Assembly (NCBI GenBank): GCA_030690405.1
Contig: JAUYGU010000162.1
Coordinates: 1-12,725, forward strand
From: Dehalococcoidia bacterium
GTDB lineage: Bacteria > Chloroflexota > Dehalococcoidia > SM23-28-2 > RBG-16-64-32
Length of the DNA stretch: 12,725 nucleotides
Direction: 5' to 3'
Shown here piece by piece: positions 864 to 12,725 of this stretch; position 1 is the stretch's first letter, and each line of letters begins with the position of its first letter. Under the pieces are notes generated by a model. It searched no databases, was not told the DNA's origin, and saw only the letters and a program-made list of their open reading frames with translations. The position numbers and the translations under genes are program-made.

Positions 864-1952
864 ATGAAGTTCGGTCAGCTGCACCTGTTTGAAAACCCGA
901 TGGACCGCAGCGAAAAAGAGATCGTCGACGAGCAGTTCGACATCATGGCGCGCGCCGAGGAGTTCGGCTTCGACTCCGTATGGCTGGCCGAGCACCACTT
1001 CAGCGAGTACGGCTACTGCGCCTCGCCGGCCGTCACCCTGGCCGCCCTCGCCACCCGCACCCAGAAGGTCCGCCTCGGCACCGGCGTCGTCGTCCTCCCC
1101 CTGAACCACCCCCTGCGAGTGGCGGAGGACTACGCCATTCTCGACCTGCTATCCGGCGGCCGCATCGATCTCGGCGTCGGGCGCGGCTATCAGCCCCACG
1201 AGTTCGCCGGCTACGGCGTCGACCAGGCCCGCTCCCGCGACATCTTCCACGAATCCGTGGAGATCATCCAGCGAGCCTGGACGGAAGAGCGCTTCTCCTA
1301 CCAGGGGCAGTTCTACCAGGTCAACGACCTGTCCGTGCGCCCCAAGCCGCTGCAGAAGCCGCACCCGCCCATCTGGATGGCCTCCCTCTCGCCGGAGACG
1401 TTCGAGCTCTGCGGCCGCGACGGGTTCAATCTCATGTGCGCACCGGTGTTCGGCTTCAACGTCAACACCGGCGCTTCCCTGATCGAGCATTACCGCGCGG
1501 CCCTGCGTGATCACGGACGCGATCCCGCCGGCTTCGAGATCGCCGGGCTTACCATGACCTACGTCGCGGAGACCACTCAACAGGCGCTGGCGGACTTCCG
1601 CGAAGCCGTTATGTGGTACTACAAGACCTTCGCCAGGTACATCGCCCCGCCCAAGGGCGCCCCCGCCGTCAAGACGTACGAGTTCTACGCCGCCGCCCGA
1701 GACGCCATCGAGTCGGCGGAGTGGGACCGCATCGTCGCCTCCGGCTCCGTTGTCTGCGGCAGCCCGGACCAGGTGGCGGAGCGCATCGCTGAGATCCACG
1801 AGCTGTGCGGCATCACCCACTACCTGGCCTGGACCCGCATCGGCGGGCTGGAGCACGGGAAGGTACTGCGCAGCATGGAGCTGATGCGGGACAAGGTCAT
1901 GCCCCAGGTGCGTCACCTCGGCGAACGCTCCGCCGCCGAAACGGCCGGCTAA
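864..1952 (+). CDS. LLM-class (luciferase-like) flavin-dependent oxidoreductase
   Basis: The ATG at 864 is chosen because GGAGG (853-857) sits 6 nt before it and the protein then begins MKFGQLHLFE, the usual short beta strand of this fold; in-frame upstream codons lack such a site. The 362-residue product has the luciferase-like TIM-barrel signatures: FDSVWLAEHHF (36-46), KVRLGTGVVVLPL (68-80), an ILDLLSGGR segment (92-100) followed by DLGVGRGYQPHEF, and a C-terminal stretch with a CGSPDQVAERI motif typical of the family. Such enzymes use FMN or F420 to oxidise or monooxygenate diverse small molecules; cofactor and substrate cannot be read here. It is a single gene with its own promoter, divergent from the crotonase gene. 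Family assignment is firm, function unassigned. Confidence 0.92.
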   Translation: MKFGQLHLFENPMDRSEKEIVDEQFDIMARAEEFGFDSVWLAEHHFSEYGYCASPAVTLAALATRTQKVRLGTGVVVLPLNHPLRVAEDYAILDLLSGGRIDLGVGRGYQPHEFAGYGVDQARSRDIFHESVEIIQRAWTEERFSYQGQFYQVNDLSVRPKPLQKPHPPIWMASLSPETFELCGRDGFNLMCAPVFGFNVNTGASLIEHYRAALRDHGRDPAGFEIAGLTMTYVAETTQQALADFREAVMWYYKTFARYIAPPKGAPAVKTYEFYAAARDAIESAEWDRIVASGSVVCGSPDQVAERIAEIHELCGITHYLAWTRIGGLEHGKVLRSMELMRDKVMPQVRHLGERSAAETAG

Positions 1953-7662: not shown

Positions 7663-7679
7663 CATACGGGGGGCCTAAC

Positions 7680-9185
7680 ATGTCACAGGCCAACCTTAGC
7701 CGCCGCCTCAGCGCCCAGGACGCCACCTTCCTGTACTTTGAGCGGGAAGAGACGCCCATGAATATCGGCTCCGTAGCCGTGTGCCAGGGTCAGATACCCT
7801 ACGATAAGTTCGTCAAGAACATACAGGACAAGATACACCTCATCCCGCGCTACCAGCAGCGCATCGTCCCGGCTCCCCTTAACCTCTCCCACCCCACCTG
7901 GGAGTGGGACCCCAACTTCGATATCCGCAGGCACATCATGCCGCTGCGCCTGGACCCCCCCGGCAGCCTGGACCAGCTCCGCGAGCTCGCCTCGCGGCTC
8001 TTCCAGGGCATGCTCAGCCGCGACAAGCCGCTGTGGGAGATGTACCTGGTCCACGGCGTCGAAGGCGACCGCTCTGCCATCGTCTCCAAAGTCCACCACT
8101 GCCTCGTCGACGGCGTCTCCGGCATCGAGCTGCTGATGATAGTGTTCGACGTCTCGCCCAACCCGGCCCCCCCGCCCCCACCCCCGGAACCGGTCGCCGT
8201 AACCTCCATCCCGGACCCCGTATCACGCTTCTTCGACGCCATGTTCGATCGCCTGGCCACCAACCTCCGGACCGCGGCCGACGCTCAGAAGGCACTCCTC
8301 AGCGCCATCGATAATCCCGCCTCTGTCCGCAGCCTGAACCGCGCCCTGGAGACTGTCCTCCCCTACTTCCTGCGGCCGGGCCGCCGGGCGCCCTTCAACA
8401 AGGCCTTCTCCGGCGAAAGAAAGCAGTCCTGGAGCGAATGCTCCTTCGCCGAAGTCCGCGCCATCCGCCAGGCCTGCGGCGGCACCGTCAACGACGTCGT
8501 CCTCGCCATCCTCGGCGGCGCCCTCAGCCGTTACTACGAGGCGCATGGCATGGATACCGAGGGCCAGGTCGCCCGCGTCCTTACGCCCGTCAACGTGCGC
8601 CGCGAGGACGAGCGCGGCAGCCTCGGCAACCGCATCTCCATGCTCCTCGTCGAGGTCCCCCTGGGCGTGCGCGACCCGATCGAGCGGCTGAACATCGTCC
8701 GCGAGCGGACGGACAACCTGAAGCGCAACCACATCGCCGACGGGATCGAGCTCCTGTCAGACTCGCTGGGGAACGTGCCGCCGATGCTCCAGGCGCTGTT
8801 GGGTACCCTTCCGGCTCCCCCGAACAACGTCGCCAACATGGTCTGCACCAACGTCCCCGGCCCCATGATCCCTCTCTACTCCGTCGGCCACCGCCTGGAG
8901 GCGCACTACCCCATGGTACCCATCGCCGGGGAGATGGGGGTCGGATTCGCCATCACCAGCTACAACCAGAAGCTCTACTTCGGGTTGACGGCGGACGCCG
9001 GCGCGGCGCCGGACGTTGAGCGGCTGGGCGATTTCCTGGCGCAAGCGTACGTGGAGCTCAGGTCGGCGGCGGGGGTCACCCCAATGGAAACGACCGAGGT
9101 GGGCGTGGCCGAAACGGAGCAGAAGCCAGCGCGGAAGCGGGCAGCGCCTTCAGCGGGACAGCCGCTGGCCGCAGATGCCGGCTAG
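7680..9185 (+). CDS. Wax ester synthase/diacylglycerol acyltransferase (WS/DGAT)
   Basis: The ATG at 7680 follows a G-rich site (7668-7673); an in-frame GTG at 7653 lacks one. The 501-residue protein carries the catalytic HHCLVDG (139-145; HHxxxDG), the upstream PLWE (117-120) and, in the C-terminal domain, a TVNDVVLA segment, TPVNVR, GNRIS and TNVPGP motifs that mark WS/DGAT enzymes. A proline-rich linker follows the N-terminal domain (about 162-172) and a 30-residue charged tail ends the protein. The enzyme esterifies acyl-CoA to fatty alcohols or diacylglycerol, forming wax esters or triacylglycerol droplets. Its stop codon overlaps that of the convergent GNAT gene in the tetranucleotide CTAG (9182-9185). 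Start site is moderately sure, family very sure. Confidence 0.93.
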   Translation: MSQANLSRRLSAQDATFLYFEREETPMNIGSVAVCQGQIPYDKFVKNIQDKIHLIPRYQQRIVPAPLNLSHPTWEWDPNFDIRRHIMPLRLDPPGSLDQLRELASRLFQGMLSRDKPLWEMYLVHGVEGDRSAIVSKVHHCLVDGVSGIELLMIVFDVSPNPAPPPPPPEPVAVTSIPDPVSRFFDAMFDRLATNLRTAADAQKALLSAIDNPASVRSLNRALETVLPYFLRPGRRAPFNKAFSGERKQSWSECSFAEVRAIRQACGGTVNDVVLAILGGALSRYYEAHGMDTEGQVARVLTPVNVRREDERGSLGNRISMLLVEVPLGVRDPIERLNIVRERTDNLKRNHIADGIELLSDSLGNVPPMLQALLGTLPAPPNNVANMVCTNVPGPMIPLYSVGHRLEAHYPMVPIAGEMGVGFAITSYNQKLYFGLTADAGAAPDVERLGDFLAQAYVELRSAAGVTPMETTEVGVAETEQKPARKRAAPSAGQPLAADAG

Positions 9186-9772
9186 CGTCGGGGACGGGTC
9201 TCAGCGGTATCGCTGAAGCCGGTCACGTCGTAGGACATTATCAGCAGGTCGTAGGTCCGGCCGTCGCGGCCCATCACGAAGTCCGCCAGCAGCGCCTCCG
9301 GCCGGAAGCCCAGGCTCTCCACCATCCCGCGGGCGCCGCGCTGATCGGTGGTCATCTGCACCATCACCTTCTGGAGGCCGAGGTCCTTGGCGATCGCGAA
9401 CACCTCGTTCGCCAGCGCCTTGCCGAGGCCGAAGCCGCGCAGCTCCGGCTTGAGCAGGACCCTGATCTCGCCGACGTGCCGCGTCCACAGCACTTCGTTG
9501 TGGTGCAGGCTGGCGTAGCCCAGAAGCTCGCCGCCGCCCTCCGCCATCACCGTGATCGTGCGGCCCTTCTTCAGGTTCTCGACCCACTCATCGACGACCT
9601 TCGGATCGGTCACGTCGGAGCGGAGGAACAGCAGGTCGTGGTCCGGGAGAGAGCGGCCGAAGCTCAGTATCGTGTCGCGGTCTGAGGGCTCCATCAAGCG
9701 GAGCGTCATCTCCACCCCGCCGACCGACGTCTGCCAGGGATACGTTCGCTTAACTACGCCTGCGTCAGCCAT
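9182..9772 (-). CDS. GNAT-family N-acetyltransferase
   Basis: The ATG at 9772 has GGGAGGGG (9787-9780) 7 nt upstream, better than more distal in-frame starts. The 196-residue protein is a single GNAT domain: central strand VGEIRVLLKPE (100-110), then the acetyl-CoA pyrophosphate-binding RGFGLG (112-117; R/QxxGxG/A) and the following helix, and a late SLGFRPEALL segment (153-162). The acceptor (small molecule, amino acid or protein lysine) is unknown. The gene has its own promoter and its upstream region abuts the candidate small-RNA locus. Nothing appears broken. Confidence 0.88.
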   Translation of the reverse strand: MADAGVVKRTYPWQTSVGGVEMTLRLMEPSDRDTILSFGRSLPDHDLLFLRSDVTDPKVVDEWVENLKKGRTITVMAEGGGELLGYASLHHNEVLWTRHVGEIRVLLKPELRGFGLGKALANEVFAIAKDLGLQKVMVQMTTDQRGARGMVESLGFRPEALLADFVMGRDGRTYDLLIMSYDVTGFSDTAETRPRR

Positions 9773-9807: not shown

Positions 9808-9836
9808 AGCATACTGGAAGACCGTGAACTTTGCAA
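9808..9836 (-). promoter_or_regulatory. Promoter of the GNAT gene
   Basis: Minus strand TTGCAA (9836-9831), 17 bp, TATGCT (9813-9808). Start near 9801 would leave a leader of about 29 nt with the GGGAGGGG site. It lies 7 bp from the start of the phased repeats at 9843, so a regulator bound there might also affect this gene. Confidence 0.55.
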
Positions 9837-9842
9837 GCAGAT

Positions 9843-9908
9843 TCTCACCGAATTAACACCCCCGCCTAACCGTTCCTTAACCATGCCCTGACCGCTACGC
9901 CGTACCAT
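9843..9908 (+). promoter_or_regulatory. Phased 11-bp direct repeats and -10 of unit A (Pho-box-like)
   Basis: The triplet ACC recurs exactly every 11 bp at 9847, 9858, 9869, 9880 and 9891, each within an 8-mer resembling PyTTAAPyPy(T/A); CTTAACCA (9876-9883) is a full match. A -10-like TACCAT lies at 9903-9908. Eleven-bp phased direct repeats are typical of OmpR/PhoB-type response regulators, and the 8+3 layout is that of cyanobacterial Pho boxes. The absence of a TTGACA box fits an activated promoter. The regulator's identity is inference. Confidence 0.55.
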
Positions 9909-9913
9909 AGCCT

Positions 9914-10000
9914 TGCAAGTGCACGGAGCGGCAACACCCCCTCCCGCCCCGAGCAGAAATCACGAGCCGGCTGTTGAATAAGCAGCCGGCTCGCTGATTT
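9914..10000 (+). ncRNA. Candidate small RNA, unit A
   Basis: Predicted transcript of roughly 87 nt from about 9914 (7 nt past TACCAT) to the end of the hairpin. It would carry GGAGCGG (9925-9931), the C-rich CACCCCCTCCCGC (9935-9947) and a 17-bp hairpin with one bulge. GGAG (9925-9928) could pair with CTCC (9941-9944) in an alternative 5' hairpin that hides the C-rich segment. No protein frame with a ribosome site is seen. CCCCTCCC is complementary to GGGAGGGG ribosome sites of nearby genes. The start position, orientation and small-RNA nature are inference from the paralogous unit B. Confidence 0.5.
9957..10000 (+). terminator. Hairpin of unit A, probable intrinsic terminator
   Basis: AAATCA (9957-9962) and CGAGCCGGCTG (9963-9973) pair with CAGCCGGCTCG (9983-9993) and TGATTT (9995-10000), with one bulged C at 9994 and a 9-nt loop. 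The U-tract is short (TTT), and the outer A/T arms make it usable from either side. Confidence 0.6.
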
Positions 10001-10019
10001 CCCAGCCCCTCCTCTCGTT

Positions 10020-10086
10020 TCTTACCGAACTCCTACCCCCCCTCTAACCTGCCTTTAACCCATCCACCCCAGCGAGGCACTAACCT
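10020..10086 (+). promoter_or_regulatory. Phased direct repeats and -10 of unit B (Pho-box-like)
   Basis: 8-mers TCTTACCG, TCCTACCC, TCTAACCT and TTTAACCC place ACC at 10024, 10035, 10047 and 10058 (spacing 11, 12, 11). A TAACCT -10-like element is at 10081-10086, the same 23 bp beyond the last ACC as 9880 to 9903 in unit A. Confidence 0.5.
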
Positions 10087-10091
10087 AACGT

Positions 10092-10184
10092 TGAAAGCAG
10101 CGGAGCGGTCAGCACCCCCTCCCGCGCCGCAAAGGCACAGAGCGAGCCGGTTGAGTTTGTCGGCAACCGGCTCGCTCCCGTTTT
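10092..10184 (+). ncRNA. Candidate small RNA, unit B
   Basis: Predicted transcript of about 93 nt from near 10092 to the T-run at 10181-10184. It shares CGGAGCGG (10101-10108) and CACCCCCTCCCGC (10113-10125) with unit A and ends in a perfect 14-bp hairpin. The two units keep the C-rich segment unchanged while flanking bases drift, suggesting that segment is the working part. No expression evidence is available. Confidence 0.52.
10140..10184 (+). terminator. Intrinsic terminator of unit B
   Basis: GAGCGAGCCGGTTG (10140-10153), 10-nt loop, CAACCGGCTCGCTC (10164-10177): perfect 14-bp stem followed by CCG and TTTT (10181-10184). Relative to unit A the inner stem changes from GGCTG/CAGCC to GGTTG/CAACC, keeping pairing. 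Confidence 0.7.
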
Positions 10185-10198
10185 GGTACCCACCTTCG

Positions 10199-10227
10199 TT
10201 GACGCCCCTATAGGCCCGTGCTACAAT
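10199..10227 (+). promoter_or_regulatory. Strong promoter of the MetE-like genes
   Basis: TTGACG (10199-10204), 17 bp, TACAAT (10222-10227), with an extended TG at 10219-10220. It is the best promoter in the window. A start near 10234 leaves an untranslated leader of about 130 nt. Confidence 0.75.
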
Positions 10228-10255
10228 CGCGGGTGCTCCAGGACCGTCAGATGTA

Positions 10256-10354
10256 ATGCACTTGCGCGGTCGCTGGTTCAGCTTCGGATTCGCCCGCCCT
10301 TTGGCTTCTGATTCCGAAGCGCCGGGCGATTCCTCACCGGAACAAGTACTGTAG
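10256..10354 (+). CDS. Possible 32-residue leader ORF, uncertain
   Basis: An ATG at 10256 opens a frame that ends at TAG (10352-10354), 9 nt before the ATG of the first MetE-like gene and in the same frame. AGGA (10240-10243) sits better for the overlapping minimal frame ATG-TAA (10251-10256), whose stop shares its last base with the ATG at 10256. The encoded peptide has no run of methionine, cysteine or other regulatory codons. Such a frame arises easily by chance in GC-rich DNA, so it is listed only as a possible translated leader. Confidence 0.2.
   Translation: MHLRGRWFSFGFARPLASDSEAPGDSSPEQVL
10281..10333 (+). promoter_or_regulatory. Structured leader with two interlocking helices, candidate riboswitch or attenuator
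   Basis: GCTTCGGA (10281-10288) is perfectly complementary to TCCGAAGC (10313-10320). Within its loop TCGCCCG (10290-10296) is perfectly complementary to CGGGCGA (10323-10329), which lies outside; with GGA (10286-10288) and TCC (10331-10333) this second helix reaches 10 bp around one T-T mismatch. The helices either form a pseudoknot or exclude each other. The element lies between the promoter and the start of a MetE-like gene. I do not recognise a known SAM, SAH or cobalamin riboswitch consensus. The connecting segments of 1 and 2 nt are tight for a classical pseudoknot, so alternative hairpins are at least as likely. Confidence 0.45.
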
Positions 10355-11420: not shown

Positions 11421-12416
11421 ATGTCAGCGCTCGTAACAACCGCGGTGGGCAGCTACCCCAAGCCGGACTACCTGGCCCGCGCCCGCAGCCAGTTCTCCCA
11501 GGGCAAGCTTGACCGCGAGGAGCTGGAGAAGCTGGAGCGCCAGGCCACAGAGTACTGGATCCGCTCCCAGGAGCGGCTGGGCCTCGACGTACTCGTGCAC
11601 GGCGAGATGGAGCGCGGCGACATGGTCGCCTACTTCGCCGGCGAGCCCGGCGGCCGCACCATCGAGGGGATGAAGCTGGGCGGCCTCGTCCGCTCCTACG
11701 GCAACCGCTACTACCACAAGCCGGTCATCGCCGGCAAGCTCGCCTGGCCCGGCCCCATGACCGTGGAGATGTGGCGCTACGCCCAGGGCCTCACCGATAG
11801 GCCCGTCAAGGGGATGCTCACCGGCCCTTACACCATGGTGGAGTGGTCGTTCGATGAGCACTACCCGTCGCGGCGCGACGCCGTCCTCGACATGGCGAAC
11901 GTCATCCGCCGCGAGGTCGAGGAGCTCGTGAAGGCCGGTGCCCGCTACGTCCAGATCGATGAGCCCGCCATCCACACGCGGCCGCGGCAGGATTTCGACC
12001 TCGCCGTGGAGGCGATGGAACGCGTCGTCGAGGGGATCGACTGCGAGTTCCACACCCACATCTGCTACGGCGAGGTGGAACTGATCTATCCGGACATGCT
12101 GCGGCTGCCCGTCAAGCAGATCCACCTGGCGTTCAAGAACACCAACTTCGAATACCTCAAGCTCCTGGAGGAGCACCCCTTCGACAGCGACAAGGACCTC
12201 GGCGTCGGCGTCGTCGACGTCCACACCCATGTGCTGGAGCCCGTCGACGAGGTGAAGGACGGCATCAAGCGCACGCTGAAGCTGCTGCCGCCGGAACGCG
12301 TCTGGATCCTGCCCGACTGCGGCCTCAAGACCCGCACCGTCGAGGAGGCCGAGGGGAAGCTGCGGGTGATGATGGACGCCACCCGCGCGGTCAAGCGCGA
12401 GCTGGAGCTCGACTAG
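11421..12416 (+). CDS. MetE-like methyltransferase (core methionine synthase fold), copy 2, zinc site mostly intact
   Basis: The ATG at 11421 follows GAGGT (11412-11416) by 4 nt. The 331-residue protein is again the catalytic barrel alone: GSYPK (10-14), GEME (61-64), RPVKGMLTGPYT (127-138), IDEPAIH (179-185), HTHICYGE (211-218) and PDCGLKTR (298-305). His213, Cys215 and Cys300 match three of the four zinc ligands of E. coli MetE (His641, Cys643, Cys726); the position of Glu665 is Ala237. The substrate-binding Asp180 is kept. This is the better candidate for a thiol methyltransferase; without the N-terminal folate-binding domain it probably takes methyl from a corrinoid protein or another donor. 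It follows copy 1 by 82 bp. Its last 11 codons and stop are the start of the 122-bp tandem repeat. Confidence 0.85.
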   Translation: MSALVTTAVGSYPKPDYLARARSQFSQGKLDREELEKLERQATEYWIRSQERLGLDVLVHGEMERGDMVAYFAGEPGGRTIEGMKLGGLVRSYGNRYYHKPVIAGKLAWPGPMTVEMWRYAQGLTDRPVKGMLTGPYTMVEWSFDEHYPSRRDAVLDMANVIRREVEELVKAGARYVQIDEPAIHTRPRQDFDLAVEAMERVVEGIDCEFHTHICYGEVELIYPDMLRLPVKQIHLAFKNTNFEYLKLLEEHPFDSDKDLGVGVVDVHTHVLEPVDEVKDGIKRTLKLLPPERVWILPDCGLKTRTVEEAEGKLRVMMDATRAVKRELELD

Positions 12417-12434
12417 GCAAACGCAGGGTTAGGT

Positions 12435-12455
12435 CCCCGTCCCTGCCGGGCGGGG
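12435..12455 (+). repeat. GC hairpin within the 122-bp repeat unit
   Basis: CCCCG-t-CCC (12435-12443), loop TGCC, GGG-CGGGG (12448-12455): eight pairs with one bulge. It is repeated 122 bp further on, and again in the third copy. There is no T-run, so a rho-independent terminator is unlikely; it may protect mRNA 3' ends. Confidence 0.5.
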
Positions 12456-12471
12456 CTGGGCGCAATCGCTG

Positions 12472-12491
12472 CCGCGGCTTTCAAGCCGCGG
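12472..12491. repeat. REP-like palindrome within the 122-bp repeat unit
   Basis: CCGCGGCTT (12472-12480), TC, AAGCCGCGG (12483-12491): perfect 9-bp arms. A second copy lies at 12594-12613 and a third begins at 12716 and is cut by the window end. It shares the GGCT(T)TC(A)AGCC core with the palindrome at 11354. Confidence 0.8.
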
Positions 12492-12725
12492 TCCCGCCCC
12501 CCACCCGCGAGGTCAAGCGCGAACTGGAGCTCGACTAGGCAAACGCAGGGTTAGGTCCCCGTCCCTGCCGGGCGGGGCTGGGCGCAATCGATGCCGCGGC
12601 TTTCAAGCCGCGGTCCCGCCCCCCACCCGCGAGGTCAAGCGCGAGTTGGAGCTCGACTAGGCAAACGCAGGGTTAGGTCCCCGTCCCTGCCGGGCGGGGC
12701 TGGGCGCAATCGCTGCCGCGGCTTT

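Follow-up and report, generated by a model that had tools for sequence, protein, structure and literature searches.

A C-rich hairpin loop acting as antisense to a G-rich ribosome-binding site (RBS) was reportedly, to judge by its title, the subject of a 2019 paper by Mai et al., and the accession of the 6C family in Rfam is RF01066. Among the 6C/B11 RNAs of actinobacteria, B11 of M. abscessus has a C-rich loop that pairs with six consecutive G at the RBS of eccB4 and represses this gene, with compensatory changes described (PMC10470900). The nearest tandem case is that of NmsRA and NmsRB of Neisseria, two similar sRNAs that share one intergenic region and carry anti-Shine-Dalgarno motifs, according to the available sections of that report (PMC5362039). 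For Dehalococcoides, the accessible excerpt of one paper mentions only an rdhA motif (PMC11109978), and within the available literature on Chloroflexota sRNAs, no study of trans-acting sRNAs was found for this mostly uncultured phylum; a search limited to open-licence papers, seen in part, yielded no description of the RNA presented here.

The stretch analysed in this work (the window) comprises 12,725 nucleotides from a Dehalococcoidia bacterium, in which the 591 bases between an acetyltransferase gene and the first MetE-like gene hold two copies of one unit. The features of this region are as follows.

9185..9772, minus strand: GNAT acetyltransferase gene, divergent (PF00583)
9843..9882, plus strand: unit 1 putative operator, four TNACC at 11-bp steps (TCTCACC..TAACACC..CCTAACC..CTTAACC), from the pattern
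9903..9908, plus strand: unit 1 putative -10 hexamer TACCAT, without a good -35, 20 bp past the last TTAACC
9909..10001, plus strand: unit 1 predicted RNA, from covariance models, predicted start about 9914-9916
9924..9947, plus strand: unit 1 core CGGAGCGG-CAA-CACCCCCTCCCGC, hairpin with C-rich loop, from pattern and fold
9963..9993, plus strand: unit 1 terminator hairpin CGAGCCGGCTG..CAGCCGGCTCG, from fold and covariation
10020..10060, plus strand: unit 2 putative operator, four TNACC with spacing 11/12/11 (26.6 on the box matrix, best register)
10081..10086, plus strand: unit 2 putative -10 hexamer TAACCT, 20 bp past the last TTAACC
10087..10182 (10086-10182 by model R2), plus strand: unit 2 predicted RNA, from covariance models
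10101..10125, plus strand: unit 2 core CGGAGCGG-TCAG-CACCCCCTCCCGC, from the pattern
10140..10177, plus strand: unit 2 terminator hairpin GAGCGAGCCGGTTG..CAACCGGCTCGCTC, from fold and covariation
10199..10227, plus strand: sigma-70-type promoter of the MetE-like gene, TTGACG-17-TACAAT (10 of 12 matches, 0.2 expected)
from 10364: first MetE-like gene (PF01717)

By comparing these units with the described systems, both likenesses and differences become apparent. The likeness to 6C/B11 lies in the C-rich hairpin loop as antisense to a G-rich RBS (PMC10470900, accessible part). 6C/B11 has two C-rich loops, whereas here there is one C-rich loop (C5UC3) followed by a terminator, in a different phylum; the two hairpins with a C-rich loop each, by which 6C is recognised, were not found in the window units. 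Moreover, 6C gave no match at E<=10 in 9820-10220 and none at E<=1 in the window or in the loci of 17 relatives. With NmsR, the units share the arrangement of two similar putative transcription units within one intergenic region, which recurs in five genomes besides the window, and the anti-Shine-Dalgarno motifs (PMC5362039, available sections). NmsR is under RelA/stringent control and differs from the window units in sequence and phylum, and the same sections mention nothing like the 11-bp repeat box found here (PMC5362039). By this analogy, the best reading is that the units would work like 6C/B11 and NmsR without being a member of either. The original prediction could name no known RNA family by eye, and the Rfam scan agreed: no family matches the region, and the 17 relatives' loci gave only tRNAs plus a weak YrlA match inside a tRNA cluster.

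The two units are clearly related. Local alignment of 9830-10010 with 10010-10190 scores 50.0, against a mean of 11.7 (sd 2.0, maximum 21) for 1000 dinucleotide-shuffled pairs. The two paralogous units with an identical order of parts were correctly placed by the original prediction. In both, four TNACC direct repeats are followed by a -10 hexamer, a C-rich core hairpin and a terminator hairpin. The phased repeats proposed earlier are present, but their description is revised to four TNACC repeats whose A-to-A spacings are 11/11/11 (unit 1) and 11/12/11 (unit 2); the pattern TTAACCN5TTAACC (<=3 mismatches) occurs at 9 places in the window, 4 of them inside the two units, where 1.67 are expected in all. 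The distance of 23 bp given for the -10 element holds when counted from the A of the last ACC and corresponds to 20 bp from the end of the last TTAACC. The TTGxAAG block is common to both window copies but is absent as a family feature, and the G-rich block reads GCGGNGCGG across the family, as judged from the alignment and folds. A strict terminator scan found none in the window; the U tails of both unit terminators are weak.

On the basis of this anatomy, each unit may be a self-contained gene for an untranslated sRNA of about 85-95 nt. A response regulator of the OmpR/PhoB type would bind head to tail on the four subsites at 11-bp steps and recruit RNA polymerase to a -10 element that has no good -35. 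The predicted RNA would then fold so that a GCGG/CCGC hairpin displays ACACCCCCUC in its loop and a terminator hairpin ends the transcript, a fold to which the covariation also points, and the loop would pair in trans with G-rich RBSs and block translation, with the mRNA of WS/DGAT (wax-ester/triacylglycerol synthase) in the same neighbourhood as a possible target. That the units are real sRNA genes is considered highly probable, and it is reasonably likely that they act as a sibling trans-acting pair with loop-to-RBS pairing under an OmpR/PhoB-type regulator.

The units belong to a family of one order of uncultured Chloroflexota bacteria. The exact core pattern was found at 7 loci in the genome collection, of which L004, L005 and L007 are Chloroflexota MAGs with complete anatomy; the other 4, with 14.7-21 bits over the core alone, were not accepted. 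With covariance model R1, built from six units, 9 of 294 genomes of class Dehalococcoidia yielded 22 places, all nine genomes belonging to one order. Beyond the window, model R2, built from 23 units, located 22 units, spread over 9 of the 25 genomes of that order (26 raw places, 4 of which lay opposite genuine units and were dropped). The window units belong to both training sets and score 88.2 bits (R1) and 73.6 bits (R2) for unit 1 and 81.2 and 75.4 bits, respectively, for unit 2. Among 301 genomes of the phylum, partly the same as the class sample, R2 had strong matches in G002 only; 17 weak places (29-36 bits), 15 of which were read and two of which are opposite-strand reads of two of these, are mostly bare hairpins and were not accepted. 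Neither sample, of 294 genomes from the class and 301 from the phylum, contains an accepted unit outside the order. Within the order, no unit was found in the other 16 genomes; this does not prove absence, since the larger searches had stricter filters and completeness is not stated. The family set therefore consists of 24 units, 2 in the window and 22 elsewhere, from 10 genomes in all. The covariance-model search proposed in the original prediction thus returned recurrent matches with the C-rich segment and covarying stems.

There are 1-5 copies per genome, in which box, core and hairpin follow one another in constant order, with the box missing in three G176 copies (L026, L029, L032) that are also shorter; one tRNA gene lies near copy c and three near copy e. 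This is not the picture of a dispersed repeat, which the original prediction named as a refuting finding. No reading frame is conserved over the 24 units: stops break the three frames in 12, 13 and 16 of them, leaving 12, 11 and 8 with a stop-free frame across the core, which speaks against a small-peptide gene and agrees with the earlier claim of noncoding RNA genes rather than protein genes. Several copies per genome, and tRNA genes near two of the box-less G176 copies, are what a dispersed repeat or mobile element might leave behind, and a small-peptide gene was weighed along with them; against these, the copy number of 1-5, the conserved locus and the missing frame conservation make all three extremely improbable. 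A plasmid or viral element was likewise rejected, as plasmids gave no match and the three viral-contig pattern matches were partial or none by the model.

In terms of structure, the family core approximates GCGGNGCGG-nnn-ACACCCCCTCCCGC-CCCGC. Pairing of the G-rich block with the last bases of the C-rich block and those after it leaves ACACCCCCUC in the loop of a GCGG..CCGC hairpin; the second hairpin is the GAGCCGG.. terminator, which has no C run. The loop is nearly invariant across the family and the flanks drift. In an alignment of 23 sequences, 89.3% of cells pair, compared with 83.0% in shuffles (0 of 500 as high) and 31.6-52.0% in slid versions, and two-sided changes number 37, compared with 12.6 in shuffles (none as high). 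Of the five covariation measures, two do not stand out clearly from the shuffles, namely the pairs with a two-sided change (8 vs 5.0; 18 of 500 shuffles as high) and the further pair types (23 vs 21.2; 98 of 500 as high). The covariation resides mainly in the terminator, where 7 of 12 pairs show two-sided changes over the 23 units; in the core stem, a single pair switches from GC to UA in two related units, and the lower part is paired in only about 16 of 23 units. When six units were folded as single sequences, five showed the core stem, unit 2 of the window folding differently; the loop CACCCCC is predicted to be 0.95-1.0 unpaired in unit 1 and partly open (0.18-1.0) in unit 2. In the best reading, the two window copies are sibling RNAs that share their loop but differ in the flanks.

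Tandem pairs occur in 6 of the 10 genomes (window, G002, G001, G176, G279 and G273), and G165 has two units on different contigs. In a FastTree tree of the 24 units, unit 1 groups with the first copy of G002 (0.94), the first units of G176 and G165 group together (0.90), as do their second units (0.98), and unit 2 groups weakly with the second copy of G002 (0.45); because first copies group with first and second with second, the tandem pair is probably older than some of these splits. A divergent gene for one kind of acetyltransferase adjoins at least one unit in 10 of 10 genomes (by Pfam in the window and G176). The other flank of the pair holds an FTR1-like permease, accompanied by a cupredoxin-like protein in G176 and G001 but not in G279, or else a ZIP transporter (G273) or a MetE-like gene (window, G002). 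A DtxR-type gene and a MetE-like gene come next in both G279 and G273; Pfam was run for the neighbours in G176 and G273 and the DtxR-type protein of G279, and the other neighbours were judged from their N-termini.

A terminator hairpin ends each unit, and in the window the MetE-like gene comes next, as would suit leaders, attenuators or terminators of neighbouring genes. Opposed to this, the gene that follows is convergent in G176, G001, G279 and G273, four of the six tandem pairs, so that the units are not a leader of that gene; the MetE-like gene of the window is served by a separate promoter (10199-10227), the only one found by the scan; and box and -10 are separate for each unit. A role as leader, attenuator or terminator of the neighbouring genes is very improbable, and sRNA genes in their own right remain the preferred reading.

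Other observations were made around these loci. Copy c of G176 is convergent with a gene for a Trans_reg_C-domain protein, whose RBS has GGGGG. At about 10255-10340 of the window, a small frame, RGRWFRFGFAPPFGFWFR, before the MetE-like gene looks frame-shifted by eye; it is open in L005 (about 1500-1620, minus strand) and in L106 (9291-9554). At 12379-12725, the final codons of the second MetE-like gene recur in a tandem array (122-bp period, 2.8 copies, 97% matches) that continues past the window end.

The loop is an anti-Shine-Dalgarno sequence, and the RBS of the WS/DGAT gene near the units is a candidate target.

7668..7682, plus strand: candidate target at the WS/DGAT gene start (GGGGGG run plus start codon)

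Of 9 sRNA-bearing genomes, 7 (window, G267, G132, G002, G001, G273 and G003) show a G5-6 run at this RBS, vs 1 of 7 others (Fisher, P 0.02 one-sided, 0.04 two-sided). The sRNA-bearing set consists of the window and 8 genomes, G165 having no match; its exceptions read GGGG (G279) and plain GGAG (G176). Among the sRNA-less genomes, G155 has a G run, with GGAGG, and G261, G198, G218, G235, G081 and G285 have none. Two second paralogues (L248, L249) have no readable start, and L250 stands for G003, where L244 is a start-less fragment. As background, GGGGG stands at the RBS of 7 of 98 genes on sRNA contigs (ATG plus an SD-like stretch), and 4 of these 7 are WS/DGAT. Since shared ancestry and a shared locus bear on the same contrast, it is a lead rather than proof that WS/DGAT may be a target. 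A G-rich RBS also precedes the alpha/beta-hydrolase gene of the locus in the window, G001 and G132, the three genomes in which the motif caught the start of this gene.

Other target candidates were tried. Exact 11-nt loop complements, GGGAGGGGGTG, are not enriched: of 31 places, 12 are sRNA genes, leaving 19 vs 19 controls, and the gene starts at long perfect complements offered nothing convincing (L180, L183 and L194 skipped). The reversed loop pairs with RBSs about equally well, so pairing strength does not separate targets from the SD background. The window acetyltransferase gene carries GGGAGGGG at its RBS; as a conserved target, the acetyltransferase mRNA was rejected, as it ranks 33 to 137 of 169 genes (7 rows, window copy excluded). 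It may be asked whether the RNA binds a protein or the 30S subunit, as a sponge or anti-SD mimic, instead of chosen mRNAs. The nearly invariant loop beside drifting flanks and the lack of enriched exact extended mRNA complements would suit such a role; on the other hand, the conserved letters are those that RBS pairing needs, the neighbouring WS/DGAT gene keeps its G-run RBS, and no known protein motif was recognised in the RNA. Binding of this kind is therefore regarded as improbable, and pairing of the loop with G-rich RBSs is preferred.

The four-repeat box is present in 21 of 24 units and is near TCTYACC-n4-TNNYACC-n4-TNTAACC-n4-TTAACC, with its position set by hand in G279b1 and G267; downstream, the aligned promoters tend towards TAACCT/TAATCT in columns 67-72. 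A regulated promoter is likely, given the four 11-bp repeats. Direct repeats at 11-bp steps are also the likeness to OmpR/PhoB-family operators: in the parts available, PhoP of M. tuberculosis is described as binding 7-bp motifs with a strict 4-bp spacer, three or four motifs being bound better than two (PMC4832192), and the cyanobacterial SphR/PhoB box as an 8-bp CTTAACCT with a 3-bp linker (PMC1906773). We infer from this arrangement an OmpR/PhoB-type regulator for the predicted box. The distance to the -10 is different: 20 bp here, counted from the end of the last of the four TNACC, against 10 bp for the E. coli Pho box according to the same excerpt (PMC1906773).

With <=2 mismatches, the four-repeat pattern has 26 matches in the 25 genomes vs 1 for the reversed pattern. 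Boxes of the sRNA units account for 16, one of which is an overlapping register. The remaining 10 comprise four upstream of a small winged-helix gene in G226, G176, G001 and G273 (Pfam in G176 only), one in G279 that precedes the RNA element of these winged-helix loci, described below, but a different gene, three at an ECF sigma gene in G198, G218 and G001 (Pfam in G001 only) and two single ones. On a matrix built from 20 sRNA boxes, unit 2 of the window being excluded, the winged-helix boxes of G001, G176 and G273 and the G279 box score 32-43 and that of G226 <12; the reversed matrix has no match >12 bits in 745 kb of loci, overlapping loci included. Outside genuine boxes, 400-bp windows of the sRNA contigs reach 9.4, and five non-family places (L145, L151, L135, L043 and L119) score 19-21. 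Trans_reg_C proteins over the cut-off number 11-16 in each of three genomes, none of them tied to the box. The TTAACC repeats upstream of the ECF sigma gene (L123, L124 and L142) come with a conserved GGGGCGTCTATTGTTCATCC leader and are seen in two genomes without the sRNA as well.

The regulator might be PhoB itself, which would make the tandem units phosphate-starvation sRNAs. In favour, the repeats are similar to the SphR/PhoB box of cyanobacteria, which consists of CTTAACCT and a 3-bp linker (PMC1906773, excerpt), and because the box letters recall it, pstS-type genes were inspected (16 places in 8 of 9 genomes, with 12 upstream regions read). Four of the 12 have repeats, and the G176 region reaches 22.8 on the sRNA-box matrix on one strand; a -10-like hexamer stands about 21-22 bp past the last repeat in 3 of the 4 promoters, by eye. 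However, the pstS repeats read GTTAAC/TTAACG with 11/10/11 spacing, unlike the sRNA box, and on the better strand the other boxes score 10.2 (G279), 3.0 (G273) and negative (G001, where a 20.3 falls beside the box). The 22.8 is not unique, since other loci reach 19-21, and the 11-bp step is general to the OmpR family. PhoB as the regulator is thus rather unlikely, and a Pho box, alike in step but unlike in letters and spacing, was not taken as the settled answer; an OmpR/PhoB-type regulator in the wider sense is preferred. As a separate observation, TTTTACG..GTTAAC..GTTAAC..GTTAA (11/10/11) upstream of pstS-type genes (L072, L073, L078, L079) is likely the Pho box of the order.

A second C-rich hairpin RNA was also seen in the order, with TCATCGCCGCACCCCCG in a GCGC..GCGC stem and a U-rich tail (L205-L229; e.g. 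L212, L217, L221, L224). Model R3, built from 5 members, gave 28 places in 16 of 25 genomes; among the newly read loci, the motif is present in 18 of 20 (L211 and L223 being loci not located by the script) and the TNACC box in none, whereas the five training members do have the box. In 4 of the 5 boxed genomes this RNA is followed by the winged-helix gene, in G279 by another gene, and Rfam on 12 of its loci gave no match. Another element, GAAAGGAGGTGGTGTGCAGTGAG to a terminator hairpin, is common to L086, L089 and L093, three of the weak R2 places, from three other Chloroflexota genomes.

One response regulator might drive both CACCCCC-loop RNA families as an RNA arm that silences G-run RBSs, including that of WS/DGAT; this is offered tentatively, as a doubtful but far-reaching extension. 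If true, the RNA arm of uncultured Dehalococcoidia would cover the storage-lipid enzyme WS/DGAT. In general, the family offers another lineage with C-rich-loop antisense control, and its readable operator, fixed loop and conserved locus make post-transcriptional control in Chloroflexota testable in metatranscriptomes.
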